Assembly: GCF_900104795.1 (NCBI RefSeq)
Contig: NZ_FNTG01000001.1
Location: 496,001 to 560,000 of the forward strand
DNA from: Burkholderia sp. WP9
GTDB lineage: Bacteria > Pseudomonadota > Gammaproteobacteria > Burkholderiales > Burkholderiaceae
Direction of reading: 5' to 3'
DNA length: 64,000 bases
Within the stretch, counting starts at the first letter, position 1, and every line of letters begins with the position of its first letter. Below are positions 10,276-41,857 of this stretch, in pieces. The notes below the pieces were generated by a model that saw nothing but the letters and a program-made list of their open reading frames with translations, was not told the origin of the DNA and searched no databases. Position numbers and translations under genes: made by a program.

Positions 10276-13200
10276 ATGTCGAATGTACCCAAAAGTCCCG
10301 CTGCGGCGAACGAGAATCCGGCGCCGGCCGCCGATCAACCGAAGGCCGGCGACGCCGCACGCCGCACAGCACCGGACGCTCAACCGAACGCGCCGCACAC
10401 GGCGCGCGAGCCGCGGCGCGCCGCAGAAAATGCGCAAGCGTCAGCGCAGAGAAATCATCCGCGCCGCGAAGCCCGCAATCATGAAAGTGGCGAGGTGGCA
10501 AAACCCACTGGAAGTGGCGAGCCGCAGCCGCGTGAGGGCAGGGAAGGCCGAAGGTCAGACCACAACCCCGGGCGTGCGCGGCAGCAGAGCGCGTCTGGCG
10601 CGAACCAGCAGAAAAGCGCCGCTCGTGGCGATCAGCCACGTCAAGCGGACTCGCGAGACGGCGGGTCGCGCCGCGAGCAAGCGCCGCCCCGCGCCGCGCG
10701 CGCAGCGCGTGTCGTCGAGCCCAATCCGATTCCGCCGATCACCTATCCGGAAGCGTTGCCCGTATCGGGCCGCCGTGAGGAAATCGCCAAGGCGATCGCA
10801 CAGAATCAGGTCGTGATCGTCTGCGGCGAGACCGGCTCCGGCAAAACCACCCAGCTGCCGAAGATCTGCCTCGAACTCGGCCGCGGGCTCGGTGCGGGCG
10901 GCTCCGGTCTGATCGGCCACACGCAGCCGCGCCGGATCGCCGCTTCGGCGACGGGCCGCCGCATCGCCGAAGAACTCGGCACGCCGTTCGGCGAGGTGGT
11001 CGGCTACAAGGTGCGCTTTACCGACAATCTGTCGCCGGGCGCCTCCGTCAAGCTGATGACCGACGGTATCCTGCTCGCCGAAACGCAGACCGATCCGTTG
11101 CTGAAAGCGTATGACACGCTGATCATCGACGAGGCGCACGAGCGCAGCCTGAACATCGACTTTCTGCTCGGCTATCTGAAGGAAATCCTCGTCAAGCGTC
11201 CCGATCTGAAGCTGATCGTGACCTCGGCGACGATCGACGCGGACCGTTTCGCGCGCCACTTCGGCAGCGAAGAGAAGCCCGCGCCGGTGATCGAGGTGAG
11301 CGGGCGGCTTTATCCGGTCGAGGTGCGCTACCGCCCCGTCGCGGAAGACAGCCCCGCCGTGAAAGCCGCGGAAGGCAGCGCGCCGTCTTCCGCCTCGCGA
11401 GGCGAGCGGCCGAAAACCCAGCGCGAAACCGATCGCGATCTGATGGAAGCCATCGTCGACGCCGTCGACGAACTCTGCCGCGAAGGTCCGGGCGACGTGC
11501 TCGTGTTCCTGCCCGGCGAGCGCGAAATTCGCGACGCCGCCGAGGCGCTGCGCAAGCACCATCCGCCGCATACAGAAATTCTGCCGCTGTTCGCCCGTCT
11601 TTCCGCGGCCGAACAGGAGCGCGTGTTCCGCACGTCGAACGCGCGGCGTATCGTGCTGGCCACCAACGTCGCCGAAACCTCGCTGACGGTGCCGGGCATT
11701 CGCTACGTGGTCGACACCGGGCTCGCGCGGGTGAAGCGCTACTCGTATCGCAACAAGGTCGAGCAGTTGCAGGTCGAGTCGATCTCGCAGGCCGCCGCCA
11801 ATCAGCGGGCCGGGCGTTGCGGCCGGGTCGCCGACGGCATCTGCATTCGCCTGTACGAAGAAAGCGACTACCAGGGCCGCGTGCGTTTCACGGATCCGGA
11901 AATTCTGCGCTCGTCTCTGGCCTCGGTGATTCTGCGGATGAAGTCGCTGCATCTGACGGCGATCGAGACGTTCCCGTTCATCGAACCGCCGCCGGGCCGT
12001 GCCATCGCCGACGGTTATCAGCTGCTCAACGAACTCGGCGCCGTCGACGACGACAACCAGCTCACGCCGCTCGGCCGCGAACTCGCGCGCTTGCCGCTCG
12101 ACCCGCGCGTCGGCCGGATGATTCTGGCCGCCCGCGACCAGCAGGCGCTGAAGGAAGTGTTGATCATCGCCAGCGCCTTGTCCGTGCAGGATCCGCGCGA
12201 CCGGCCGATCGAAGCGCAGGAGCAGGCCGATCAGGCGCATCGCCGGTTCGCCGACGAGCGTTCGGAATTCCTGCAATGGCTGAAAATCTGGAACTGGTTC
12301 GAAGAAGCGATCGCGCACAAGAAGTCGAACAAACAGTTGCACGAGGAGTGCCGCAAGAACTTCCTGTCGCAGCTGCGTCTTCGCGAGTGGCGCGATGTGC
12401 ACTCGCAACTGCTCACAGTGGTGCGTGAGCACGGCTGGCGCTTGAACGAAGCGGAAGCGACCTTCGAGCAGATCCATCTCGCGCTGCTGACCGGTTTGCT
12501 CGGCAACATCGGCCTGAAAGCCGACGACGAACCGTATTACCTCGGCGCGCGCAGCATCAAGTTTTATCTGTGGCCGGGCTCGGCGCTGGTGAAGAAAGCC
12601 GGCAAGTGGGTGATGGCCGCCGAACTGGTCGAGACGAGCCGGCTGTACGCGCGTTGCATCGCGAAGATCGAGCCGGAGTGGATCGAGAAGATCGGCTCGC
12701 ATCTGTTGAAGAAGTCGCTTTCCGAGCCGCATTGGGAAAAGCGCGCGGCGCAGGTCTCGGCATTCGAGCGCGCGGTGCTGTATGGCCTGCCGATCTATCA
12801 CCGGCGGCGCGTGAGCTTCGGCAAACAGGATCCGGCACGCGCCCGCGAACTATTCATTCGCGGCGCGCTGGTGGAAGGCGAGTTCGATACAAAGCTCGCG
12901 TTCTTCGCGCACAACCGCAAGCTGCTCGCCGATATCGAGCAGCTCGAACACAAGTCGCGCCGTCAGGACGTGCTGGTCGACGACGAGCTGATTTTTGCCT
13001 ACTACGATCAGGCGCTGCCGAAGGGCATCTACACCGGCGCGTCGTTCGAGCGCTGGTATCGCGACGAGGTGAAAAAGAGCGGTCAGCCGGAAGACAAGTT
13101 GCGCCTGCTGTACCTGTCTCGCGACGATCTGATGCGGCACGAAGCCGCCGGCGTGACCACCGACCTGTTCCCGAAACGGATGACGATGGCGGGCGTCGAG

Positions 13201-14670
13201 ATGGCGCTCACCTATCACTTCGAACCGGGTTCGCCGCGCGACGGCGTCACGCTCGCCGTGCCGCTGTATGCGCTGAACCAGGTCGACGCGCGCCGCTGCG
13301 AATGGCTCGTGCCCGGCATGCTGAAGGAGAAGGCGCAGCTGCTGCTGAAATCCCTGCCGCAGAAACTGCGCCGTCATTGCGTGCCGCTGCCTGAGTTCGC
13401 GGCGGGCTTCGTCGAACGGCATAGTGGTCCGCGCTTCGGCGCGGGCGGCTTGCTCGAGTCCCTGATCGCCGATATTCGCGAGCAGACCCAGGTCGCGATG
13501 AAGCAATCGGACTTCAAGCTGGAGACCTTGCCGCCGCATCTGTTCATGAACTTCAAGGTCGTCGACGAGCATGGGCGTCAGCTCTCGATGGGCCGCAATC
13601 TGTCGCAACTGCGCGCCGAACTCGGCGGCCAGGCGCAGCAGCATTTCCAGAAGATCGCTTCGAGCGCGGCGGGCGCGGCGTTGGCGGACGCGGGCGGCGG
13701 CAGTGTCGCGACGCCGTCGCAAGCGTCTGGCCTGGCAAACGCCGCGGCGCAGCGCGGCAAGGGCGCTCCGGCGTCGGGTCCGCAGACCGCGCCGCAAGAC
13801 GGTGCGCAGGGCACGGCGCTGTATGAAAAGCTGACGACCTGGAACTTCGGCAAGCTCCCCGAGCTGCTTGAAATCCGTCGCGGCGGCCAGACGCTATTCG
13901 GCTATCCGGCGCTGGTGGATCGCGCCACGCATTGCGACGTGGAAGTGTTCGATTCACCCGACGAAGCCGCGCGGATCCATCGCGCGGGATTGCGCCGGTT
14001 GTTCGCGTTGCAGTTGAAGGAACCGATCAAGTATCTGGAAAAGAATCTGCCGGGCTTGCGCGAAATGGCGATGCAGTTCATGCCGCGCGGCACCCAGGAA
14101 GAGTTGCGCGATCAGTTGATCGACACCGCGCTCGACCGTGCCTGCCTGCAAGACCCGTTGCCCGACGACGACGTCACTTTCCACACGCGCCGTGACGAGG
14201 GCCGCAGCCGCCTGACATTGCTGGCTCAGGAAATTGCCCGGCTGGTCGGACAGATTCTCGGCGAATACGCGACGGTGACCAAGAAGCTGGTGCAGGCGAA
14301 GTCGTTCACGGCGGCGCATGCGGACCTGCACAATCAGCTCGACGGACTGATCGGCAAGCGCTTCGTGGTCGATACGCCGTACACGCAACTGGCGCATTTC
14401 CCGCGCTACCTGAAAGGGATTGCGCTGCGCATCGACAAGCTGAAAGCGGACCCCGCGCGCGACGCCCGTCAGTTCGCCGAGTTCCAGCCGCTGTTGCAGA
14501 ACTATCAGCGCGCGGTGGCGCAGCGTGGCGGCGTGCTGGATCCGCGTCTGTCGGAATTCCGCTGGCTGTTGGAGGAGTTGCGCATCTCCCTGTTTGCTCA
14601 GGAATTGCGCACGCCGATGCCGGTGTCGGTGAAGCGCCTTCATAAGGTGTGGGAGTCGATGCAGCGCTGA
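10276..14670 (+). CDS. hrpA: ATP-dependent RNA helicase HrpA (DEAH box)
   Basis: Large DEAH-box helicase that unwinds RNA and, in E. coli, acts in mRNA processing and the rescue of stalled ribosomes. The first ~145 residues are a low-complexity, charged and probably disordered extension. The helicase core follows: Walker A GETGSGKTTQ, motif Ib region TDGILLAET, DEAHERS, the SAT motif, ETSLTVPGIRYVVDTG and QRAGRCGR. The HA2/OB region and the HrpA-specific C-terminal domain complete the protein. A second Ala/Gly-rich linker lies at about residues 1132-1180. The 1464-aa length exceeds the ~1300 of E. coli because of these two insertions. Confidence 0.95.
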   Translation: MSNVPKSPAAANENPAPAADQPKAGDAARRTAPDAQPNAPHTAREPRRAAENAQASAQRNHPRREARNHESGEVAKPTGSGEPQPREGREGRRSDHNPGRARQQSASGANQQKSAARGDQPRQADSRDGGSRREQAPPRAARAARVVEPNPIPPITYPEALPVSGRREEIAKAIAQNQVVIVCGETGSGKTTQLPKICLELGRGLGAGGSGLIGHTQPRRIAASATGRRIAEELGTPFGEVVGYKVRFTDNLSPGASVKLMTDGILLAETQTDPLLKAYDTLIIDEAHERSLNIDFLLGYLKEILVKRPDLKLIVTSATIDADRFARHFGSEEKPAPVIEVSGRLYPVEVRYRPVAEDSPAVKAAEGSAPSSASRGERPKTQRETDRDLMEAIVDAVDELCREGPGDVLVFLPGEREIRDAAEALRKHHPPHTEILPLFARLSAAEQERVFRTSNARRIVLATNVAETSLTVPGIRYVVDTGLARVKRYSYRNKVEQLQVESISQAAANQRAGRCGRVADGICIRLYEESDYQGRVRFTDPEILRSSLASVILRMKSLHLTAIETFPFIEPPPGRAIADGYQLLNELGAVDDDNQLTPLGRELARLPLDPRVGRMILAARDQQALKEVLIIASALSVQDPRDRPIEAQEQADQAHRRFADERSEFLQWLKIWNWFEEAIAHKKSNKQLHEECRKNFLSQLRLREWRDVHSQLLTVVREHGWRLNEAEATFEQIHLALLTGLLGNIGLKADDEPYYLGARSIKFYLWPGSALVKKAGKWVMAAELVETSRLYARCIAKIEPEWIEKIGSHLLKKSLSEPHWEKRAAQVSAFERAVLYGLPIYHRRRVSFGKQDPARARELFIRGALVEGEFDTKLAFFAHNRKLLADIEQLEHKSRRQDVLVDDELIFAYYDQALPKGIYTGASFERWYRDEVKKSGQPEDKLRLLYLSRDDLMRHEAAGVTTDLFPKRMTMAGVEMALTYHFEPGSPRDGVTLAVPLYALNQVDARRCEWLVPGMLKEKAQLLLKSLPQKLRRHCVPLPEFAAGFVERHSGPRFGAGGLLESLIADIREQTQVAMKQSDFKLETLPPHLFMNFKVVDEHGRQLSMGRNLSQLRAELGGQAQQHFQKIASSAAGAALADAGGGSVATPSQASGLANAAAQRGKGAPASGPQTAPQDGAQGTALYEKLTTWNFGKLPELLEIRRGGQTLFGYPALVDRATHCDVEVFDSPDEAARIHRAGLRRLFALQLKEPIKYLEKNLPGLREMAMQFMPRGTQEELRDQLIDTALDRACLQDPLPDDDVTFHTRRDEGRSRLTLLAQEIARLVGQILGEYATVTKKLVQAKSFTAAHADLHNQLDGLIGKRFVVDTPYTQLAHFPRYLKGIALRIDKLKADPARDARQFAEFQPLLQNYQRAVAQRGGVLDPRLSEFRWLLEELRISLFAQELRTPMPVSVKRLHKVWESMQR

Positions 14671-31356: not shown

Positions 31357-31433
<77 letters not shown>

Positions 31434-31548
31434 AAGCCCAGTAGTGAGTGTCGCGATAGCTGGGTGGCATGCAAAAGGTTCTTTGTTTGCTTGCAGGGCA
31501 ATCGCCGTGTCGTTCAAGCGTGAGTGTCCAAAAATATCGCAAAACATC

Positions 31549-31571
31549 AAACCCGCTACGGCGGGTTTTTT
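31549..31571 (+). terminator. Terminator downstream of tRNA-fMet
   Basis: The AAACCCGC/GCGGGTTT stem with loop TACG continues into a run of T residues. It is about 115 bases after the tRNA 3' end. Confidence 0.85.
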
Positions 31572-31810
31572 GTTTTCCGCATCTGACCTATTGAGACCCG
31601 CTGGCTAACGCATTCGACAACTGCTCGTGCGAAAGTGCGTGCATTGCAACCATTCGCGGCAGCGGGCTTGCAAAGGAAGGGATATCACTTGATCGTCGTG
31701 AGCGATCTCAACGCGCTACACCACCGCGCGCCAGACGCGGGCGCGGATTAACGCAAATTCGCGCCGTACGCTGCGTTCGCGATGGATGGCGTCACCTGAG
31801 CCGCACCAGC

Positions 31811-32557
31811 TCAATCATTGTCCTGTCTCCCTATCTTGGTCGTTCGTACCGACTCGCTTGCCGCGGAAGCAGGGAAGGGGTTGGTCAAGTCGCGGTTGCG
31901 AAGCCATCCGGTCACGATCTTACGAGAGTCTGTTTCATCAATCGACATATCGGGACTCACGTATCGCGCGTACGAGTAACCTTCGCGCCGGCTAAGTAAT
32001 GTGACGAGATCTCCTGGCAAAATATACTGCCGCCGTTTGCCGATGCCCGGTTTTTCATAGAAATAGGTTTTGTTGGTGGAAACGGCGATACCAACGGCGT
32101 CGAATCGTTCAGTCGCCGAATACTGACTTGCGCCACGTTCTCCGGGCGCCGCATTAAACAAGCCCGCTGCACTCTGACACCCCGCGTGCGGACGATCTGT
32201 TTTTAGCGCGATTTCATTGTCGTGCAGATACAGCGTGCCGTCGATTTCCGCCCGTGGGTCGCGTTGAGCATAGGAGAACATTCCTTTATAGGGAATGAAG
32301 TCGAACGTCTTCATTCGCAACACCGCTGTTCCGTCCGCGCTTTTGACTCCCTCATCTCTGTTCGCCATGAACAGGAACCCGCATGAGAATGGGGTTTCCT
32401 GGGCGCGGTAATAGCCGACGATATCCTCTCCCGACTGATACGTTACGAAACTCAGTTCGTCGTATGTCGTCGCGACACCGGCGGTGGCGATTTGGCAGGC
32501 CAACATAAGGAAGCAGGATGCAATCGCTTTGAAAAGCCCTCTATTTGAATTTTTCAT
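31811..32557 (-). CDS. Secreted SH3-like protein, candidate immunity protein of the muramidase effector
   Basis: A 248-aa protein with an N-terminal export signal (KAIASCFLMLACQIATAG). A Cys at residue 21 is a non-canonical lipobox candidate, so it is periplasmic or a lipoprotein. The C-terminal third (TYFYEKPGIGKRRQYILPGD to VTGWLRNRDL) resembles bacterial SH3 domains that bind peptidoglycan peptides. Its start overlaps the end of the effector gene by 17 bases, the tight coupling expected for effector-immunity pairs. A cell-wall-degrading effector needs a periplasmic antidote, which this protein could be. The immunity role is inferred from position and export. The gene looks AT-richer than its neighbours, suggesting transfer. 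Confidence 0.7.
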   Translation of the reverse strand: MKNSNRGLFKAIASCFLMLACQIATAGVATTYDELSFVTYQSGEDIVGYYRAQETPFSCGFLFMANRDEGVKSADGTAVLRMKTFDFIPYKGMFSYAQRDPRAEIDGTLYLHDNEIALKTDRPHAGCQSAAGLFNAAPGERGASQYSATERFDAVGIAVSTNKTYFYEKPGIGKRRQYILPGDLVTLLSRREGYSYARYVSPDMSIDETDSRKIVTGWLRNRDLTNPFPASAASESVRTTKIGRQDND

Positions 32558-33983
32558 AAAATTTTCTCATCGATTCAGGATATTTTTGAGGATAATGTTG
32601 GCCGTTGTAATAATATGCAAAAGACTCCCAGTTCTTCTCTTGCAGTGCTTTTTTTGCTGAACTGTTCATGTTGACGTAGGCGACAAAAAGATCAAATTGC
32701 TCGTCAACGCCCTGCATTTCGAGGTTGGCTAACTCGATGGGACTTGCGTAGCCCATTTCTTCGTAGAAAAAGGCCAACACCTGGAATGCTCCCCATGAGC
32801 AGGCCATGATCGCGGCATCACGATTCAACGCGCATGCCTGAACAAAACGCTCGTATTGGTGCATGACTTTTTCATCGCTGTGCGACCAGCCATGATCGTC
32901 AGTTTCGCCAGCCGTGTATCCGCCTTGAATCGGCAGGCAAAGATTAGGAAATGCCGGGAAAGGATTCGGCTGCTTTTTTAATAAAGCCGGCTTTTCATTT
33001 CTCTTGTCCTTCGGCAAGAGGGATCGAAAGAAGACATGACGTTCGTAGCGAATTTTTGGCAAGCCGTTGTCACAGAATCCCACCCCATCGCTTTCGGTCA
33101 TCGCGACCGCCTTGATGGCAGCCGCCTCACAGCCGAGAGTCTTCGCCGCCTCAGCGTATTTCTTCTCGCTTATTTCGAGCGTTTTGGGATAGTTGAGCTT
33201 TGATCCGAGCACGTTGAATGCGACAGTGGTCGGCTTGCCGGTATCGACAACCGTGTAGTAGTGGTCAATGGTCACGGTCGTCTTTTCCTTTTTCGTCTTA
33301 CCGTCGATCGTGGTTTCCTTATGGCGTGTCGGCGTATCCCTTTTGACTTTGCCCTGCTCAGTGACTTTCTGCGACCAACCGATATAAGGCCCAAACTCGC
33401 CCACGAGCCGCTCGACGGTCATGACTTCATCGTGTTGCACCACAGGAACGTTCAATTCCTGCTCGAATTCCTCCTTCGGCGTGAGCTTCGTCGTGGCTTC
33501 CAGGTGGTATTCGGGGCTGGTGACCGTAAATACGCTGATGTCTTTCTTCGGTGTGACCGTGGCCTTCCAGACGAACTCGCCTCGACGGTTCTTCACCAGC
33601 ACGTCAATCGGCTGGTTGCGTGCGGCATTGCGAATCGTGATCGCGTAGCCGTCTTTGTCCGTTGTCGCTTCAATGGTGTTTGCAATCGCAGGCGGAGGAG
33701 GCGCGGTAGTCGCGGAGGCGACGGCGGGAGCGGACGTGGCTAGCGTTGCCGATGCGTCGGCAGCGTCGGTCTGCGCGCCGGTTGTCCATTGCGGAGCGGG
33801 CCGCGCGCCCGCACCCGCCTTGATCTGCACGGAGAGTCCTTCAATGGGCTTCTGCAGGACGTCACGAAAGACAAGGGTAGCTTGCACGTAGGGCGCAGCC
33901 GATGCCTTCGGCTGACTTGCTGGATGCTTGTGATGAGCCATAGGTTCTTGCAGGTTCGTTGTTCGTTTGCACACACGACTCAC
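32541..33983 (-). CDS. Type VI secretion effector with N-acetylmuramidase (DUF3380-like) domain
   Basis: Predicted cell-wall hydrolase delivered by the VgrG spike. Residues about 30-165 form an Ig/transthyretin-like beta domain interrupted by an Ala/Pro linker (about 70-100), probably the VgrG-docking part. Residues about 270-480 match the N-acetylmuramidase family: AAAIKAVAMTESDGVGF with candidate catalytic Glu297, IRYERHVFFR, and AAIMACSWGAFQVLAFFYEEMG. There is no signal peptide, as expected for T6SS cargo. The GTG start overlaps the vgrG stop (GTGA); an ATG at 33941 is the alternative start. The immunity-candidate gene overlaps its end by 17 bases. Confidence 0.82.
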   Translation of the reverse strand: MSRVCKRTTNLQEPMAHHKHPASQPKASAAPYVQATLVFRDVLQKPIEGLSVQIKAGAGARPAPQWTTGAQTDAADASATLATSAPAVASATTAPPPPAIANTIEATTDKDGYAITIRNAARNQPIDVLVKNRRGEFVWKATVTPKKDISVFTVTSPEYHLEATTKLTPKEEFEQELNVPVVQHDEVMTVERLVGEFGPYIGWSQKVTEQGKVKRDTPTRHKETTIDGKTKKEKTTVTIDHYYTVVDTGKPTTVAFNVLGSKLNYPKTLEISEKKYAEAAKTLGCEAAAIKAVAMTESDGVGFCDNGLPKIRYERHVFFRSLLPKDKRNEKPALLKKQPNPFPAFPNLCLPIQGGYTAGETDDHGWSHSDEKVMHQYERFVQACALNRDAAIMACSWGAFQVLAFFYEEMGYASPIELANLEMQGVDEQFDLFVAYVNMNSSAKKALQEKNWESFAYYYNGQHYPQKYPESMRKFYEKFK

Positions 33984-36739
33984 GCCGACGCGTCGCTATC
34001 GTCGGACTCGTCATGGTCGTACGCGTCTTCCGCGACGCGCCAGTCGCCCGCGCCAACTTCGCACTTCACTTGGGTCGATGCCGGCGTGGTGACGGTGAGC
34101 GTGGCCCCGTTCGTCAACATCCCCTGCTGCTGGATCGTGCCGTCGGGCAGATAAATTCGATAAGACTGGTCTGCCAGCCTTAGGCCGACGCCATGATTCC
34201 TGGCGACGGTACTCACGTCGAACGTCTGGGTGTAAATGCCGGCCGGATTCTGAACGAGCGGGGCGAGCGGAAGGACGGGCAGTGGCGCGCGCATCGACGA
34301 TGCGTCCGGTTTGCCCCAGTGAGGGGTCTTTTCGAGAATGGGCCCGGGCGAGCCGTTGACGATGCCGCCCGCGCTGATCTGGATGTACGAACCGCCCGCG
34401 CCAATCCAGACTTCCTTCGCGGCGGTGAGAACAATCTTGCCGTCTGTGCTGCCAATGGTGATGTCCTTGAGAGCGGCAAGCGCCAGTTCATCGCTTTGCG
34501 CCTGGATGTCTATCCTGCCTTTCGCCGCGATCAGCTTCATGCCGAGCGCGTAGGCGAACATGGAGATCGCACCGCGCACCGAGGCGAGTAAAGACCTCCC
34601 TGATGACACGCTCACGTCGCGGCCCGCCGTGACCGCATGATCATTTGCGCTCGCCATGTGCGTGCCGTCGGCCGCCGAGGTCGCGATGCCCGCGCTACTC
34701 ACCAGCAGCAAATCGGGGCGCGTCATTTCCGGTGACGGGTTCTCGCAGGTTCTTGCGCCGCCGTTGAGCGCGTTGTTCTGCGCGCCGATCGAGCGGGCTG
34801 CGTCGTTCTGGTTTGCTTCGATGGGTTGGGCGTTGTGCCGCTGCGCAAGCTGCGCGAGGTCTTCATGCTGTTCGCGCGCCCGCGTTAGACGCTGCACCGT
34901 TTCACCCATGTCCTTGACGGGCGACATTGCCCCGGCCCGTGGTTCGGTCGTCACCAGCATGCCCTGGTTTGCACGCACCACGCCGTGCGCCTGCGTTGCC
35001 AGTTCGAAGCCTTCACCGCGCGCCTCGTCGCGTCCTTGGTGTCCGTCGATACGCGTGTTAAAGCCAAGCACGAGCCGCGACTGCGCGTGGTCACTTGCAA
35101 CCTGAACCTGCAACTGTCCAGGAGTGTCGTCCGTCACGACGCTGTTGGCCAAGTGGCCTTTCAGTTCCCGGCTGCGCCAGCCCGACAGCGCATCGTTCTT
35201 CGGCAAGGCCCACGGAGCCTGGTGAAGCTCTGTCGTATGCTCGGACATGATGTAGGGCCGGTCCGGGTCGCTGTCGTAGTAGCCCACCAGTACGTGGTGT
35301 CCGACGCGCGGCAGCCACATTGCGCCGTGTTCGGCGCCATGCCAGGGCGACGCGACCCGCAGCCAGCAGCTTGCGTCCTGGTCGGTCGGCCCGATCCTGT
35401 CCCAGACAAAATGAGCTTTGACGCGCCCGTACTGGTCACAGTAAGTTGACTCTTCCCCGTACCCCGTGATGACGGCCGCTTCGGCGTAGGCGCGGGGCTT
35501 CTTCGCTTTTTGCGGCGTACGGTAGAACGTAGCGGCGGGCACGGCCATAAACTTCGTTTCGCAACTGTACGGGCGCATGAGACTGCCGTGCTGCGAGACG
35601 GTATCGTTGTTGACGATTTCGGTATCGGTGGACACGACCAGGTATTCGCCGTCGCCGGGCGTCAGCGGATAGCCCTGGAGGGCAAACGTATAGCCCGTCA
35701 TCAGTCCGCGCAGGTTGCCTTTGCCTTTCGCGCTCAGACTCTTCGACCGGTGTGCTTCGACTTTCACGCGTGCGAGGTGCTTGCTGTCGAAGTCGGGATC
35801 ATTGCGCCACGAAGGATCGACACCGTTCGGTCCTTCCATGGGCTGCGAGTAGTCGCCCCACGCATATTCCTCGGCGTTGTCGCATGAGCGCTGACTGTGG
35901 TCCGCCTGTTCGACCGTCAGCGCCGAAAGTGACTGCGTGTAGTCGTAGTCGACCAGCGTCACCTGGCCCGTCGTCAGTTGCCGGGAAACGCGAAACGCGT
36001 GGACATGTTCTTCGTCGATGCGCTGGCCGTCGCGGTCGAGAAAGCGCAGCGTCTGATAAGCGGGCGGGTGCTTCTGGTAGGAGCCAGGCGAGTCGCACAA
36101 CACCAGCGTGCTCTCGTTGAAGAAGAACGTGATGCCCCATTCCTGCCACAGCCGGGACAGCCACGCGAAATCCGACTCCCACCACTGCCGCTGATACTCG
36201 CGCTTCGGATAGGGGCGGCGCGCAGCGCCGGGACCGGCGAGGCGCATGTCGAACGGGTACGGGTATTTCTGCAGTACCTCGCGCGTTATCTCGGTCACGT
36301 CCTTGTCTTGCAGGATCCGGCTATCACGGTTCAACGTGGCGAGATATAACCAGGGGCGAATGTTGAGCCGGTAGTACGCACGCCGCTCATCCGCGCCGAC
36401 GCACTTCGCCGAGACGATCAGCCCTGTCAGCTTGCGCACGTCCCCGCCGCAGTTCGCTGCCGCGCCCGAGCGGCCCGGATCCGAGGCGCCACTGCCCTCG
36501 ATAGCGATGTTGACGGTGACCTCCTTGCCGATCAGCGAGTCGACGTCGACTAGCCGCTGCGCCTCGACAACGCTCAGCCGCGCGTCATCCATCGTGCTGA
36601 CATCGACATCGTAGTCGTACAGACGGCCGAGCTTCTCTTTCCCCGCCAGCCGGCCAACGACGAACAGTGATTCGCCTGCCCATTGCGGCAGCGCCTTGCC
36701 GCTCATTTCCAGCGTGCGCGGCTGTTTAAACCAGGACAT
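33980..36739 (-). CDS. vgrG: Type VI secretion spike protein VgrG
   Basis: Trimeric spike tip of the T6SS, homologous to phage gp27-gp5. Order: gp27-like Phage_GPD domain (about residues 10-420; RPWLYLATLNRDSRILQDKDV, WWESDFAWLSRLWQEWGI), gp5 OB-fold (VITGYGEESTYCDQYGRVKAHF, WLRVASPWHGAEHGAMWLPR, HHVLVGYYDSDPDRPYI), then DUF2345 needle repeats (about 640-800). A C-terminal extension of about 100 residues resembles a transthyretin-like adaptor (YRIYLPDGTIQQQGMLTNG) and ends in an acidic tail. The ATG at 36739 has GGAG six bases upstream. The 919-aa length is that of an evolved or adaptor-bearing VgrG, and the effector gene overlaps its stop. Confidence 0.95.
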   Translation of the reverse strand: MSWFKQPRTLEMSGKALPQWAGESLFVVGRLAGKEKLGRLYDYDVDVSTMDDARLSVVEAQRLVDVDSLIGKEVTVNIAIEGSGASDPGRSGAAANCGGDVRKLTGLIVSAKCVGADERRAYYRLNIRPWLYLATLNRDSRILQDKDVTEITREVLQKYPYPFDMRLAGPGAARRPYPKREYQRQWWESDFAWLSRLWQEWGITFFFNESTLVLCDSPGSYQKHPPAYQTLRFLDRDGQRIDEEHVHAFRVSRQLTTGQVTLVDYDYTQSLSALTVEQADHSQRSCDNAEEYAWGDYSQPMEGPNGVDPSWRNDPDFDSKHLARVKVEAHRSKSLSAKGKGNLRGLMTGYTFALQGYPLTPGDGEYLVVSTDTEIVNNDTVSQHGSLMRPYSCETKFMAVPAATFYRTPQKAKKPRAYAEAAVITGYGEESTYCDQYGRVKAHFVWDRIGPTDQDASCWLRVASPWHGAEHGAMWLPRVGHHVLVGYYDSDPDRPYIMSEHTTELHQAPWALPKNDALSGWRSRELKGHLANSVVTDDTPGQLQVQVASDHAQSRLVLGFNTRIDGHQGRDEARGEGFELATQAHGVVRANQGMLVTTEPRAGAMSPVKDMGETVQRLTRAREQHEDLAQLAQRHNAQPIEANQNDAARSIGAQNNALNGGARTCENPSPEMTRPDLLLVSSAGIATSAADGTHMASANDHAVTAGRDVSVSSGRSLLASVRGAISMFAYALGMKLIAAKGRIDIQAQSDELALAALKDITIGSTDGKIVLTAAKEVWIGAGGSYIQISAGGIVNGSPGPILEKTPHWGKPDASSMRAPLPVLPLAPLVQNPAGIYTQTFDVSTVARNHGVGLRLADQSYRIYLPDGTIQQQGMLTNGATLTVTTPASTQVKCEVGAGDWRVAEDAYDHDESDDSDASA

Positions 36740-36827
36740 CGGCGACTCCAATCATCAGCAACTCCCTTGGCGAGCAACTCAGATAGGGTGGTAAATCAGG
36801 CACTGGAAAATGAGATCGTCACGCTGC

Positions 36828-38714
36828 TCAAACCGCGTCGCGCGTGCCGGCGCGCGGTGGCCAGCGTCCAATTCGCCCGCGCTGCTTCGAGCGCAGTACG
36901 GTCGTGGTGAACGAACGAGGCGACACATGGCGTGCCACGTAGCGTTCCAGCACGAGCGCAAGCGTGTACGGGCTCACGCCACCGAACTCCGTTTCGTCGA
37001 AAGTCAGCTCGCATTCAATCCCGCGGCCGAACATGTGATCGCCGTCGAGCGCCAGACGACGGTTGACAGGCGTGGCGGTTGCGCCCACGAGCCCCGCGAC
37101 CTGACGCCGCAATTCATGAGACTCGGTGCCCAGGTACAGGTCCATCAGCGTGCGCAGTGCGTCGCCGGCGCACGGTTGATCCGGCCGGCCATCGAACGCC
37201 CTGTAGGTGAAGCTCAGTTGTCCGATCAACTGCCATGCGCGCCTACCGAACGCAAGCGGTGGCCGTGGCGTCGTCGGCGCGCGTAGCAGGCCAATGCTCT
37301 TTTGGGGAATCGAGCTCGCCACAGACAGGTCGGACACGCCGTTGCGCGGCACCACGCACGGGAGGTCACGATTGGTCAGGAGCGCTTCGAGCGACACATT
37401 GCGAATGCCTTCGGCATCCGGCATTCCGTTTTCGTCCAACAGCGAGAGGAACGTGCGTGTTTCCGTGAACGGCCGGCGGCTGCCGTAGTGGCGGGAGTCA
37501 TCAGCCGGGCGGGCCAACTCGCGCCGTATCGTAAAGTAGCGCCCGCTTTGACCATCGCCATCCCGGTAGCGCGCGTGCAGTGGATGGAATCGCAGCGCTT
37601 CGGCATGTTCCGAAACCTGTCCCCAGGCACCCGATACCGAATACACCTCGTAGTCGCGCGGAAATTTGGCCACAGGCACGAGCGGGTGGTCAGCTGCCCG
37701 AGCGCCAAGCGCCAGCCACTCGGTGCGCCGTGGAAACAGGTTGATGATGGGCGTGCAGAACAGCGCGAAATGCGACGCGTCGACCGTCTCTGCCAGCTTG
37801 TCCACGCGGCGGTCGAGTAACACGATGATTTCAGCCTCAGTGCTGCCGATGGCGGACAACCCCTTGCCAAGGCCGGTGAGCGTGAAAAACCAGAAGCGTG
37901 CGGGACAGCTGAAATACTCCTGCAACAGGTTGTGCCCGTGAAACTTGTGAGGAACGGCGGGCAGCAGGCTCTGTTCCGGTTCGAGTGCATCATGCACGAC
38001 CGCATTCTCGGTGACGACATGCAGCGTGCCGGTCGTGAACTCGCCGGGTACGCCCGTGATGGTGGCCACGCCGGCCGCGTGAACCAGTTCGAACAGGTGT
38101 GAGGCGCTCGCTTCGGCGCCGGCCAGGCAGACCGTCAGCCGGTCGAGTTCCGCGAGACTTGAGATCGGTGCGCCGTTGATCGTTCGCAGAAGAAGCCGCA
38201 GCGCGCCCTGTATCTGCACGTCTTGGGCGACGTAGCGGCCGAGCCCCGGAATGTCGGGCGGGATGCCGGTTAGCCGTGCCTGCGCGATTTCCAGTGGATA
38301 CAACGTCACGTCCTGGCTGCTGCGGAACTCACAGGCCGTCAACTCACCGTCTGGCACGCGTGACATGAAGGCGGTGCCGCGCGGCACCACGGTTGCGTTG
38401 GCGAACTGCTTTCCTCGTACGAGCGGGAACACACGCGCGACAGCCATTGAGGGAGTCTGGCTGACATAGTTCGGATAGAGGGTTTGCAGCAGCGGCTGGG
38501 TGAACTCCGCGAAGGTTTCATCGAGGCGCATCTGCATGCGCGCGGTCGAGAAGGCCGATGACTGGAGCAAGCGCTCGACGAAGGGATCGCCGACTTCGCC
38601 CGCCTGCATGCCGAGTCGCTTCGCGATCTTCGGATGCGCGTTGGCAAACTCCTGCGCCAGTTCGTGCATGTAGAGCAGTTCGGCGTTGTAGTGCTCAAGA
38701 AGTCGCGGATGCAT
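36828..38714 (-). CDS. tssF: Type VI secretion baseplate protein TssF
   Basis: Baseplate component that, with TssG, TssE and TssK, forms the wedge around the VgrG spike. The 628-aa sequence runs the full family length: MHPRLLEHYNAELLYMHELA, the characteristic GDPFVERLLQSSAF, LYPNYVSQTPSMAVARVFP, YFSCPARFWFFTLTGL, and the C-terminal RSKQRGRIGRWPPRAGTR. It appears intact. Unusually, tssG does not follow; the gap of 88 bases leads to vgrG. A complete T6SS must therefore be encoded elsewhere, or this copy is a relic carried with the spike. Start support is weak, with no good ribosome-binding site seen. Confidence 0.93.
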   Translation of the reverse strand: MHPRLLEHYNAELLYMHELAQEFANAHPKIAKRLGMQAGEVGDPFVERLLQSSAFSTARMQMRLDETFAEFTQPLLQTLYPNYVSQTPSMAVARVFPLVRGKQFANATVVPRGTAFMSRVPDGELTACEFRSSQDVTLYPLEIAQARLTGIPPDIPGLGRYVAQDVQIQGALRLLLRTINGAPISSLAELDRLTVCLAGAEASASHLFELVHAAGVATITGVPGEFTTGTLHVVTENAVVHDALEPEQSLLPAVPHKFHGHNLLQEYFSCPARFWFFTLTGLGKGLSAIGSTEAEIIVLLDRRVDKLAETVDASHFALFCTPIINLFPRRTEWLALGARAADHPLVPVAKFPRDYEVYSVSGAWGQVSEHAEALRFHPLHARYRDGDGQSGRYFTIRRELARPADDSRHYGSRRPFTETRTFLSLLDENGMPDAEGIRNVSLEALLTNRDLPCVVPRNGVSDLSVASSIPQKSIGLLRAPTTPRPPLAFGRRAWQLIGQLSFTYRAFDGRPDQPCAGDALRTLMDLYLGTESHELRRQVAGLVGATATPVNRRLALDGDHMFGRGIECELTFDETEFGGVSPYTLALVLERYVARHVSPRSFTTTVLRSKQRGRIGRWPPRAGTRDAV

Positions 38715-39564
38715 CTGTGCACATTATCTCGGGCAGCGCCTTGGCAAGGCAAACGGAAGGGTGCGTCCGTTGCAGGGGTGGACACGCGTGTCCTCTACAT
38801 ATCCCATCGCTATGTCATCCTTATTATTTGAGTTGAAAGACAGACCGGAACCGTCATTGAAGCGTAAGCCGGCCCATCCTGCCATCGGAAAATTCACAAA
38901 AGGGCGGGAGATATTTCCCTTAGGGCGCACGCGTCGAACACAGTGCGAATTGACTGCGCGAGGTCAGCGCGCACTGCTTTCCTGATCGGTCCCATTAGCG
39001 TTGCAATGATTTGCCTTGCGTCGTTGGTCGAGTCAGCGGTTACGGCCTCTCCAGGCTCCTGTGTTTTGCCCTGACCCGTTGCGACACTTCGTCAAACCGG
39101 CCGTCGACAATCTGGGTTCGTGCCGTTTAAATATGACGTGTACGACGCAGATGAATCAGCAAAGCGATGCTGTCGCCGTGAGCGCTGTGAGAACCTGCAT
39201 GATTCGCGATGAGCGAAATCTGATCGCTACCTTCGATAGCGGCACGGTGATTCTTATCCCGCGGCGCACAGCGAGGCTGCATAGCTAGCCGGGAACCGAT
39301 TCACGTCGTGACCGCTTCCGCTCATGGGCGTTGCCGCTGCGGACAAGCCACCACCGTTCAGCAAGACAATCCATTTACCAATTAAGGTGTTCGTCAACGG
39401 CCTTGTTCCGAGTCGTGCATATGCCGGCCAGGTGTTGGGAAGCGAAGCGGGTGAGCAAACACCACCCGTGCGAGAAACAGATCGGCACACTCCATCTTGT
39501 CGCGCCAGGCGCGCGGCCCTCTCGCGCTACGTGCACAGGCAAGCGGATCGCGAGAGGCTCCTCA
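38715..39564. other. Long divergent gap between tssF and the zincin gene
   Basis: About 850 bases. It probably contains the promoters of the tssF-vgrG cassette and of the zincin gene, with an AT-rich stretch around 38815-38840. Within it one short frame (39133-39288) is a possible small gene, listed separately. I see no transposase, tssG remnant or PAAR gene in any frame. Confidence 0.4.
39133..39288 (+). CDS. Possible small protein, DUF2442-like fragment (51 aa)
   Basis: The frame from ATG 39133 encodes 51 aa. Its second half, IRDERNLIATFDSGTVIL, faintly resembles the beta-strand pattern (LxVxFxDGxxxxV) of DUF2442 proteins. There is no clear ribosome-binding site, and an in-frame ATG at 39151 is another possible start. 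It may be a real small gene or a remnant. Confidence 0.2.
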   Translation: MTCTTQMNQQSDAVAVSAVRTCMIRDERNLIATFDSGTVILIPRRTARLHS

Positions 39565-40971
39565 ATGGCTAACGGATGGATGGATATGGCATCGAACTTG
39601 AGTGTGGGAACGAACGTGGTCACTGGTCAGGAATCCTACTTTGGTGACGTGAAGCTGAAACCCGAGCAGATCAGGCTCGTCAATGCGAGCCCCCAGTTTC
39701 AATCCCAATTATTCGATTATGGCAGTGACGTGAGTTCGGGCAATATGGATCCGATGAGCAGGGGTAAAGACATCGCCACGTATTTCGACGGCAGGCACAT
39801 CGTAATCGGTCAATATCAACACTCGACGATGTCAGACGCTGCTGTGCTGGGTCATTTGTCGCATGAAATTGGTCACTACGAGAATCGCGCGAACGATAAA
39901 GCGTTCAAGTCGCAGTATGCCGTCAATCCGCGCGATCCCCAGGCCTATAACGTGGCGGCGCTAATCGGTGCTCATCAAGAAGGGGAGGCGGTCGCGAATA
40001 ACTATCAGATTCAACAGGAAATCCAGAAAAACACGGCCTCTGGGAACGCGCCTGCAACCCAGATCGACGTTAGCGGACTCCGAGGCGTCCAGGAAAAACT
40101 CGATGCGCTGCACGCAGTCGATGTAGGCGCAGGCAAGTCGAGCGCGGAGGATCGCAATAATCTTATCGTTGCCGGGATGAACGCCTATGTTAATGCAAAT
40201 CCTTCCACCGCGACCGGTAAGTCCTACTACCAATACTACGGGGAGGGCAGTCGCGCGCCGGCACCTGAAACCGGCAGTATCAAGCAGGTAGAGTTCACCG
40301 GCGACGAGCAGGGTGACATTAATTCGATGACTGAGCATTGGGCGTCCGGCGATGTCGGCACGCAGACGTTCTCAAGAGGCAAAATCCAGACTGCAGAACT
40401 CGCGGACGCTCACGGCGAATTAACCTCGACAGCGGCCTATAGTTACGCAAAGGACGGTGCCTATTCGGTCGACGTCAGGAACGGCGCGGGGCGTGAAACT
40501 GAGCGTGCCGAGTTCAATGCGGACAGGTCAGGAACAGTGCGCGATTATGCGAGCGATAACTCGTCTCAAGCCACTTCGTTCGATGCGAAAAACCGCAACA
40601 CGCAGATTGCCCAATTCGACGGCAAGGGAGAGAAAATCGAAGCGAATTACATCGTTCCAGAAACGGGGAAGTTCGCAGTTCAGGATCGCAAGTCAACGGA
40701 CGGCGGGCGTACGGTGTCCAACTATGATGCAGAAGGACGTGTTCGGGCGCAGTTCCAGTACGATCGCGATGGACAGCCCGTATTGTCGCGTGACCTTGAC
40801 GAGAATGGTAAGGATACGTTCCTGGTGGAGTACCACAAAGACGGTAGCCGGACAGTCGCAACTGTCAATGCCGACGGTTCCGAGACTGCCCATATAGTTG
40901 ACAGGAACGGCATGCGTGGCAAGGACGTCACGTTGCAGCCGCCAAAGGAAGCGGGCGCGGCTGAAGCCTGA
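39565..40971 (+). CDS. Putative zincin metallopeptidase with YD-like repeat tail
   Basis: A 468-aa protein with no signal peptide. The N-terminal third contains HEIGH (residues 100-104) within LGHLSHEIGHYENRAND, an HExxH zinc site. HQEGEA, about 36 residues on, may supply the third ligand. Residues ~240-450 are short Asp/Gly/Tyr repeats such as FDAKNRNTQIAQFDGKGEK, NYDAEGRVRAQFQYDRDGQ and NADGSETAHIVDRNG. They resemble the YD/RHS repeats of polymorphic toxins but are placed after the enzyme domain. GAGAGG lies before the ATG at 39565; the frame is open from 39331, but that part looks non-coding. Its divergence from tssF/vgrG suggests T6SS cargo. No immunity gene is visible beside it. Family assignment is uncertain. 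Confidence 0.62.
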   Translation: MANGWMDMASNLSVGTNVVTGQESYFGDVKLKPEQIRLVNASPQFQSQLFDYGSDVSSGNMDPMSRGKDIATYFDGRHIVIGQYQHSTMSDAAVLGHLSHEIGHYENRANDKAFKSQYAVNPRDPQAYNVAALIGAHQEGEAVANNYQIQQEIQKNTASGNAPATQIDVSGLRGVQEKLDALHAVDVGAGKSSAEDRNNLIVAGMNAYVNANPSTATGKSYYQYYGEGSRAPAPETGSIKQVEFTGDEQGDINSMTEHWASGDVGTQTFSRGKIQTAELADAHGELTSTAAYSYAKDGAYSVDVRNGAGRETERAEFNADRSGTVRDYASDNSSQATSFDAKNRNTQIAQFDGKGEKIEANYIVPETGKFAVQDRKSTDGGRTVSNYDAEGRVRAQFQYDRDGQPVLSRDLDENGKDTFLVEYHKDGSRTVATVNADGSETAHIVDRNGMRGKDVTLQPPKEAGAAEA

Positions 40972-40993
40972 CGGGTTGTTTGACCGGTGCGCG

Positions 40994-41013
40994 GGGCAGC
41001 CGAGCCGCTGCCC
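40994..41013. terminator. Hairpin after the zincin gene
   Basis: GGGCAGC (40994-41000) and GCTGCCC (41007-41013) form a 7-bp perfect stem with a 6-base loop, 23 bases past the stop. There is no T-tract, so terminator function is uncertain. Confidence 0.35.
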
Positions 41014-41158
41014 TGCACGCAAGGCAATCAAACCGTACGCCCAGCCAATAGGATGATATGGTCGTCCGCGCCGCGCATGGTCATATGCCTTGAGCGCCGC
41101 CAGCGGCAGTTGGGCGCGGACGCGTGCGCCGAAGTTTTCCGCTCCGCCCGTGCGGCCC

Positions 41159-41857
41159 TCACTCCCCACCAATCGCCCACTCCACCGCCGCTTGCGCATG
41201 CAACGCGGTCGTATCGAACACGGGCAACACCGAGTCTTCCGGCTTGATCAGCAACGTAATTTCCGTGCAGCCGAGAATCACCGCCTGCGCGCCACGGGCG
41301 GCCAGCGCCTCGATCACACGCCGATACACCGCGCGTGAAGCGTCATTCACCTTACCGTGGCACAGCTCGTCGTAGATGATGCGGTGCACCTCAGCACGTT
41401 CGGCTTCATCCGGAACCAGTGTTGTCAGGCCATAGCGCTCGCGCAGGCGCCCTGTGTAGAAAGTCTGCTCCATCGTATAGCGCGTGCCGAGCAAACCCAC
41501 TCGCTCGACGCCGGCCGCACGCAACGCGTTGCCGGTCGGGTCGGCGATATGCAGGAACGGCACGTCGATCGCCGCTTCGATCGATTCATACACGCGATGC
41601 ATCGTATTGGTTGCGAGCAGCACCAGACCGGCGCCGCCGCGTTCGAGTTGGCGCGCGGCATCGGCCAACTGTCGGCCAAGCGTGTCCCAGTCGCCCGCGC
41701 GCTGGAGCGCTTCGATCGGCGCGAAGTCGACGGTGAGCATCAGGCTGCGGGCGTTGTGGTGGCCGCCCAGGCGCGCTTTGGCGTGGCGGTTCAGGAGCCT
41801 GTAATACTCGGTGGACGATTCCCAACTCATCCCGCCGATCACCCCAATTGTTTTCAT
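41159..41857 (-). CDS. Aspartate/glutamate racemase family protein (YgeA type)
   Basis: A 232-aa protein with the family fold: MKTIGVIGGMSWESSTEYYR at the start, LLATNTMHRVY in the middle and ILGCTEITLLI near the end. Most racemases use two Cys residues. Here the first is Thr83 and the second Cys197, the same pair and numbering as E. coli YgeA, a racemase with broad L-amino-acid activity. A similar broad-specificity racemase or epimerase activity is likely. GGAGCAGG precedes the ATG. The gene is divergent from the deaminase gene. Confidence 0.88.
   Translation of the reverse strand: MKTIGVIGGMSWESSTEYYRLLNRHAKARLGGHHNARSLMLTVDFAPIEALQRAGDWDTLGRQLADAARQLERGGAGLVLLATNTMHRVYESIEAAIDVPFLHIADPTGNALRAAGVERVGLLGTRYTMEQTFYTGRLRERYGLTTLVPDEAERAEVHRIIYDELCHGKVNDASRAVYRRVIEALAARGAQAVILGCTEITLLIKPEDSVLPVFDTTALHAQAAVEWAIGGE

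Follow-up and report, generated by a model that had tools for sequence, protein, structure and literature searches.

A predicted zinc metallopeptidase gene in a Burkholderia tRNA-Met island is probably an orphan of a family linked to type I secretion

The window analysed here is a stretch of 64,000 nucleotides from Burkholderia sp. WP9 (contig NZ_FNTG01000001.1, positions 496,001 to 560,000; the genome is G000 in our set), and the gene in question, hereafter the window gene, encodes a protein with an N-terminal HExxH domain followed by a β-repeat domain (Table 1). It lies beside tssF and vgrG, genes of the type VI secretion system (T6SS), and many of its relatives lie beside genes of a type I secretion system (T1SS). 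The ATG start codon is at 39565 and the TGA stop codon ends at 40971; an alternative in-frame TTG at 39331 is less likely to be the start because the close relatives begin at or near MANGW/MDMAS. Comparison with the homologue in genome G142 gave dN 0.22 and dS 0.85 (NG86), values that speak for purifying selection, and the gene therefore appears to have been maintained. Its GC content at third codon positions (GC3), 0.63 against about 0.8 in most neighbouring genes, suggests a foreign origin, and the distribution is patchy: of 144 genomes of the genus, 25 have a match to any part of the gene. When 5.8 billion proteins were searched, the candidates scored being those that share most words with the query, 12 were returned including the window protein, and the named ones are from Paraburkholderia. 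No match was found for the protein in the PDB by phmmer or for the window by PADLOC, and scanning genome contigs with the protein gave 27 pattern matches, none of which was confirmed.

Table 1. Features of the window gene and its surroundings, in window coordinates.
Feature	Position	Strand	Basis or remark
tRNA-Met, at the edge of the variable island	31357..31433	+	Same sequence beside the island in G026
Muramidase gene, probable own cargo of the neighbouring vgrG	32541..33983	-	PF11860; syntenic in G026
vgrG, neighbour	33980..36751	-	TIGR03361, 352 bits
tssF, neighbour, not one unit with the window gene	36828..38714	-	PF05947, 621 bits
Window gene CDS, 468 aa, compact family member without adjacent T1SS genes	39565..40971	+	N-terminal HExxH domain and β-repeat domain
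N-terminal HExxH domain, zincin-like/gluzincin-like, residues 12-240 as modelled	39598..40284	+	
HEIGH motif, residues 100-104	39862..39876	+	H100, E101 and H104 invariant, 12/12
E139 of EGEA, proposed third zinc ligand	39979..39981	+	Conservation; class C alignment
β-repeat region, residues 239-457, about 18 strands, single-layer sheet	40279..40935	+	DSSP of the model
Last codons and terminator-like inverted repeat behind the CDS	40956..41032	+	
Two short fragments like the interior of vgrG, apparently decayed	41050-41109, 41116-41157	+	
Asp/Glu racemase family gene, other island edge	41159..41857	-	PF01177

The histidines and the first glutamate of the HEIGH motif do not vary among the 12 close relatives, the window protein included, and E139 and E141 of the downstream EGEA (residues 139–142) are each present in 11 of them. 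Across the wider family HExxH is kept in 35 of 43 rows and E139 in 33 of the 35 HExxH-bearing rows, and E139 aligns with the Glu of NEG in a related N-terminal domain, class C, described below. At the sequence level the protein thus carries the HExxH and downstream Glu of a gluzincin (H100, E101, H104 and E139). An AlphaFold (AF2) model with a pLDDT of 89 shows a helical HExxH domain followed by a single-layer β-sheet. VIA-align placed 8s5f, an HExxH oxygenase domain, at the top for the N-terminal domain; the next 21 rows we take to be peptidases or peptidase-like HExxH proteins, and they place the domain near zinc peptidases. Foldseek gave no match for this domain at E ≤ 0.001, and no peptidase family of Pfam or NCBIfam was matched by the window protein; Zn_peptidase_2 was just under its cut-off in the relative P0012. 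No chain of the VgrG2b C-terminal domain appeared at E ≤ 10 in a profile search of solved structures, nor did this domain appear among the VIA-align matches listed, which proves nothing about kinship. HExxHxxQ-E is the signature of the PVC-metallopeptidases according to PMC3482391, and the window protein reads HEIGHYEN at this place. The original prediction had placed a probable zinc-peptidase site at residues 100–104, to be supported by a match to a zincin fold with H100, H104 and a Glu/His/Asp around residues 137–141 as zinc ligands; the motif is borne out by the alignments, the candidate ligands are conserved and a zincin is the likely reading, whereas the zincin fold holds up only weakly.

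A non-peptidase role, in which the HExxH domain would be a binding module or another metal enzyme like the HExxH oxygenase ChlB, would account for the top VIA-align row and for the eight of 43 family rows that lack HExxH. We consider it very improbable, since the 17-row clade of the window protein keeps HExxH throughout and E139 in 15 rows, the next 21 VIA-align rows point to peptidases, and two relatives, L046 and P0045, carry a matrixin peptidase close to their C-terminus.

In the repeat region, D, G and A are the commonest letters (residues 240–455). Of 55 lags tried for self-matching, the two that rise furthest above shuffled sequences are 34 (z 3.9) and 12 (z 3.0), in agreement with the strand spacing of roughly 12 residues in the model. 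The Pfam family RHS_repeat (PF05593) stayed below its cut-off (7.9 bits against 22). Asp/Gly/Tyr-rich, YD-like repeats had been predicted here, and it is the Asp/Gly-rich part that stands, the YD label being weak by sequence. In Foldseek the repeat sheet resembles OspA and Rhs cores, a likeness at the level of the fold only, and a profile match connects the region with the engineered OspA 2af5 (E 8e-4). RTX nonapeptide repeats were not detected in the window protein by the Pfam search. The order of domains, predicted to be reversed relative to RHS/YD toxins, is indeed so: the enzyme-like domain is N-terminal, and it is there that the relatives differ.

To place the protein in its family, we collected the loci of relatives from all 25 genomes with a match in a first genome search, that of the window among them, and from 19 of the 22 genomes of a second (G316, G334 and G378, with short or weak matches, were left out). 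The stretches extend about 10 kb to each side, less at contig ends (L060, L062, L063, L074); genes were called with a simple open reading frame (ORF) script, and lipoproteins and signal peptides were called by eye from a lipobox or a hydrophobic start. The 40 loci comprise 32 with the N-terminal domain of the window protein (class A), two of class B (L050, L055), four of class C (L056–L059) and two that are a fragment or lie at a contig start (L042, L060); the neighbourhoods of P0015, P0021, P0033, P0044, P0045 and P0048 are outside these counts. A T1SS ABC transporter and an HlyD adaptor are encoded in 21 of the 32 class A loci, with a TolC-like match in 18 of the 21, and when near-identical loci (L061–L064; also L043 and L044) are merged, about 17 of 28 class A lineages have T1SS genes. 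Six of the eight loci outside class A have them too, and no T1SS set was found in the other two, L042 and L060. In the T1SS-linked class A loci the ABC protein is at least 58% identical to one of two queries, HlyD and TolC matches in HlyB-type loci being weaker (23–29%), and representatives exceed the NCBIfam cut-offs of type_I_sec_PrtD, type_I_sec_HlyB, type_I_hlyD and type_I_sec_TolC. Of 18 genomes tested, nine have a PrtD-type orthologue (at least 61% identity), each time at a locus of the repeat-protein family, where the repeat-protein gene is broken in G074 and G143 and has a class B head in G122. One locus, L070, has the class A domain fused to 21 RTX stretches, which is a second kind of link between this domain and type I secretion. 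Because the T1SS recognises its substrates at the C-terminus, an enzyme stands in front, and the enzyme-first order of the family is accounted for in this manner; we know of no firm sequence rule for C-terminal T1SS export signals.

Eleven class A loci have no T1SS set: six belong to the clade of the window protein (L031–L034, L065, L066), four hold solo or divergent forms (L045, L047, L049, L068) and one is at a contig end (L074). An ABC match about 16 kb from the relative in G011 is 51% identical over the ATPase part only; a T1SS was not counted there, as no HlyD or TolC match was found in that 16-kb stretch. The solo or N-extended L045, L047 and L049, with no T1SS nearby, have an apparent signal peptide or hydrophobic start by eye and have lost HExxH, and are possibly pseudoenzymes or decoys. 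A second peptidase domain, a matrixin (PF00413), is present near the C-terminus of L046 (9521-13291) and P0045; the N-terminal domain of L046 has lost HExxH and that of P0045 keeps it.

The same T1SS operon stands beside repeat proteins with other N-terminal domains, namely class B (L050, L055), which lacks HExxH, and class C (L056–L059), which reads AHELGH and is distantly related to class A (hhalign probability 96.5, with HExxH and E139 aligned). Among eight pairs compared, the three closest at the C-terminus differ in their heads. L036 (class A) and P0033, with a fourth N-terminal domain, are 99.3% identical over the C-terminal 150 residues, and L038 and P0021 (class B) 94.7%, with no match at E ≤ 0.01 over the first 230 residues in either pair; P0044 (class A) and P0048 (class C) are 92.0% identical over the C-terminal 150 residues and 21.5% over the first 230. 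These pairs bear the marks of N-terminal parts exchanged by recombination, a pattern known from polymorphic toxins, where it affects the opposite terminus. A small lipoprotein-like gene, with a lipobox by eye, lies directly upstream in L035, L037, L038 and L039, overlapping or within 12 bp, and the protein of L039 and six like it match no Pfam family. Of the 21 T1SS-linked class A loci, 14 have a tblastn match to this lipoprotein family, as against none of the 10 T1SS-less class A loci that are not cut near the gene; L074, whose contig ends in the gene, has one. L072 has a weak match at a distance of about 1 kb, and that in L073, an artefact of an over-long ORF start in the query, was not counted. 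Class C loci have a different exported-looking gene in the partner place, and for class B no such partner gene was seen upstream. In L056 three tandem, diverged copies of the exported-looking partner precede one class C toxin-like gene (12016-14581, minus strand) and resemble the immunity gene arrays of other polymorphic toxins. We would guess that the partner serves in immunity or inhibition, for which VgrG2bC-ter-like T6SS peptidases offer a precedent (PMC6899460).

A tree of the N-terminal domain (43 rows, with six P rows added and P0004, L048, L050, L073 and L074 left out; the midpoint root is for drawing) places the window protein in the 17-row clade, with support of 97/98, nested among T1SS-linked rows. 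Neighbourhoods are known for seven rows of the clade, and none of the seven includes T1SS genes; the T1SS label requires three changes on the tree, and none of 500 shuffles gave so low a number. The T1SS linkage thus appears to have been lost in one clade, that of the window protein. The window protein, like its clade, is without the tails of the long members; in this T1SS-less clade L065, L066, P0008, P0010 and L034 have long low-complexity tails rich in Ser/Asp/Ala/Gln instead. In G000 a PrtD-type match is missing at E ≤ 1e-60, the best HlyB-type match is 37% identical, and no listed ABC match of either type (HlyB at E ≤ 1e-40) falls within the window range. By eye, the N-terminus of the window protein has no hydrophobic stretch, in line with the predicted absence of a signal peptide.

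An intracellular peptidase, kept after separation from the T1SS and acting on the cell's own proteins, would fit the lack of a hydrophobic N-terminus, of an adjacent exporter and of the long C-terminal tail, the absence of a close dedicated ABC exporter from the genome, and the purifying selection. Such a role is nevertheless unlikely: patchy presence, low GC3 and an island position are unsuited to housekeeping, and extended repeat sheets are in general more usual in surface or secreted proteins. A known housekeeping context of homologues, which the original prediction had named as a finding that would speak against it, was not seen in the loci examined.

Taken together, we favour a reading, at a probability of roughly 0.7, in which the window gene is an orphan of a Burkholderiaceae family whose members are probable zinc metallopeptidases made for T1SS, with predicted activity and export. 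In the N-terminal helical domain, H100, H104 and probably E139 would be the zinc ligands and E101 the base, and the β-repeat sheet would be a stalk keeping the enzyme at a distance from the cell or the secretion tail. The ancestral protein may have been exported C-terminus first through the T1SS, and the genes of most long relatives are accompanied by those for an ABC transporter of the PrtD or HlyB type, for an HlyD adaptor and, in most cases, for a TolC-like protein. The common tails of the long relatives in the PrtD group probably carry the export signal, and the upstream lipoprotein-like protein of many loci probably shields the periplasm of the producer. The window copy has kept its active-site residues and is under purifying selection, yet is without the tail and the lipoprotein. 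Action outside the cytoplasm, reached by a route in trans, is the most likely for it, and action within the cell is less so; the candidate routes are a generic T1SS in trans, the T6SS or none. Seven T1SS-linked loci have no match to the lipoprotein family and the C-terminal tail is common within groups only, which is why we do not rate the reading slightly higher. Against a separation from the T6SS, the two vgrG-like fragments (41050-41157) lie between the window gene and the racemase gene, and the gene's 3' end with its terminator has an 85% match at the tRNA end of the corresponding island in genome G026.

The last two observations concern the island itself. The tssF–vgrG–muramidase set resembles an orphan T6SS cassette beside tRNA-Met, with vgrG-like debris at the far end (31357-41157), and no other tss genes were seen by eye among the ORFs listed around this region. 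Directly after the muramidase gene is a 248-residue ORF with a hydrophobic start (31811-32557, minus strand), which has no Pfam family and similar DNA in G026; it is probably the immunity gene of the muramidase effector. The order in G026 is racemase, tssF (an 84% orthologue at the same site), vgrG, muramidase and tRNA-Met; about 400 bp separate racemase from tssF there, at the place that the zincin gene takes in the window. Conversely, G142 has the zincin gene at the same site, flanked by the racemase and amidohydrolase genes, and lacks tssF, vgrG and muramidase; a 229-bp copy (96%) of the racemase start region flanks its far side (L031, 8980-9208 and 10966-11194), possibly a trace of its insertion. 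Cassette without gene and gene without cassette indicate that the two come and go independently. Against the G026 vgrG, the vgrG-like fragments match at 78% over 60 bases and 90% over 42 bases in blastn. The 3'-end match in G026, the only other one in G000, G026 and G142, is possibly a relic of the zincin gene; a dispersed repeat as the origin of the 3' flank was rejected, as the flank is single-copy in G000 and in G026 and absent from G142. The 5' flank has no second copy in the genome search and an 82% match over 68 bases in G026 in a smaller blast.

The original prediction held that the gene could encode a T6SS-linked effector. The shared intergenic region on which this drew is real, the window gene being divergent from tssF across 850 bp, and carriage by the neighbouring VgrG, acquired by this lineage only, would also fit a position one gene from vgrG, the vgrG-like fragments and the possible relic in the G026 island. 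We rejected T6SS cargo as the best reading and hold it to be distinctly unlikely, given the independent gain and loss in G026 and G142 and the absence of VgrG or TssF from the 40 loci of relatives (tblastn at 1e-5; the same queries match in L051–L054), where the expected co-occurrence with vgrG was not seen. No PAAR gene was found near the zincin gene in the five zincin-bearing genomes searched. The vgrG is already followed by the muramidase and 248-residue genes, and no immunity-like or exported gene adjoins the window gene by eye among ORFs of at least 40 residues at 38715-39564 or at least 80 residues on its 3' side. Among the matches listed, the class A relative of another genome that comes closest to a VgrG on its own contig is that of G074, at about 127 kb; for relatives with other heads the distances are 32 kb in G053 (class B) and about 112 kb in G092 (class C). 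The zincin gene has long been in one island with T6SS genes, unlike the relatives examined elsewhere, and its place beside tssF and vgrG reflects the shared tRNA-Met island.

A wider reading, which we judge evenly balanced, is that the window gene has strayed from a Burkholderiaceae polymorphic-toxin system of inverted design, in which exchangeable N-terminal heads are recombined onto a conserved YD-like β-sheet stalk and C-terminal tail, with a dedicated T1SS operon for export and a lipoprotein or other exported protein as head-specific immunity partner. Its heads would comprise two zincin classes that are related and at least two domains that are not, and the orphan clade would serve as a store of heads or else represent a peptidase recruited separately. 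The odd-looking domain order would then be explained by such a design with type I secretion. If this is true, a tempting guilt-by-association call, the T6SS effector, is corrected; a family emerges with the hallmarks of polymorphic toxins, front and back exchanged and a T1SS as the exporter; and each upstream gene should confer protection against its own head and no other. According to a 2015 paper (PMC4612132), all YD proteins described by then in bacterial competition are delivered by the T6SS, and measured against that statement a T1SS-coupled YD version would widen both classes. A literature search, with most subscription papers and all of bioRxiv outside its coverage, found among the papers listed none whose title or abstract start deals with T1SS-linked YD repeat peptidases, and the inverted design is apparently undescribed so far.

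Several known systems share parts of this architecture. OspA (PDB 2fkj, 2af5) has the same single-layer repeat sheet fold as the model but, unlike the window protein, no enzyme domain, and is a spirochaete lipoprotein. The serralysin-type T1SS metalloproteases (AprA/PrtB, with PrtDEF and the inhibitor Inh) resemble the family in having the peptidase in front and repeats and a C-terminal signal behind, with a PrtD/HlyD/TolC operon and a small periplasmic partner gene. The family differs from them in its peptidase domain, in an OspA/Rhs-like sheet that replaces RTX (in the members examined except L070) and in a lipoprotein-like partner without a Pfam name, and the window copy is without the operon. 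The T6SS effectors VgrG2bC-ter and Tpe1 (PMC6899460) are alike in their HExxH peptidase and periplasm-exposed partner; VgrG2bC-ter-like peptidases have periplasmic immunity there, including a lipoprotein immunity protein in one case. These effectors are part of a VgrG or T6SS cargo, whereas the relatives of the window family that were examined have no vgrG linkage. Cdz of Caulobacter, as far as the abstract of PMC5380434 goes, is a T1SS-exported inter-bacterial weapon with its own small immunity gene, as proposed for the family, but is a two-protein glycine-zipper bacteriocin, and that abstract names no peptidase or β-repeat stalk. The Rhs/YD polymorphic toxins (Zhang et al. 2012, PMC3482391) share the YD-like β repeats, a toxin-like enzyme, the swapping of a variable domain and a small partner gene. 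Their variable domain is C-terminal and their export is by T6SS or Tc, whereas that of the family is N-terminal and coupled to a T1SS, and the OspA likeness of the model suggests an open sheet rather than the closed Rhs shell. The inverted design would, if true, be the mirror image of the Rhs and CDI toxins.
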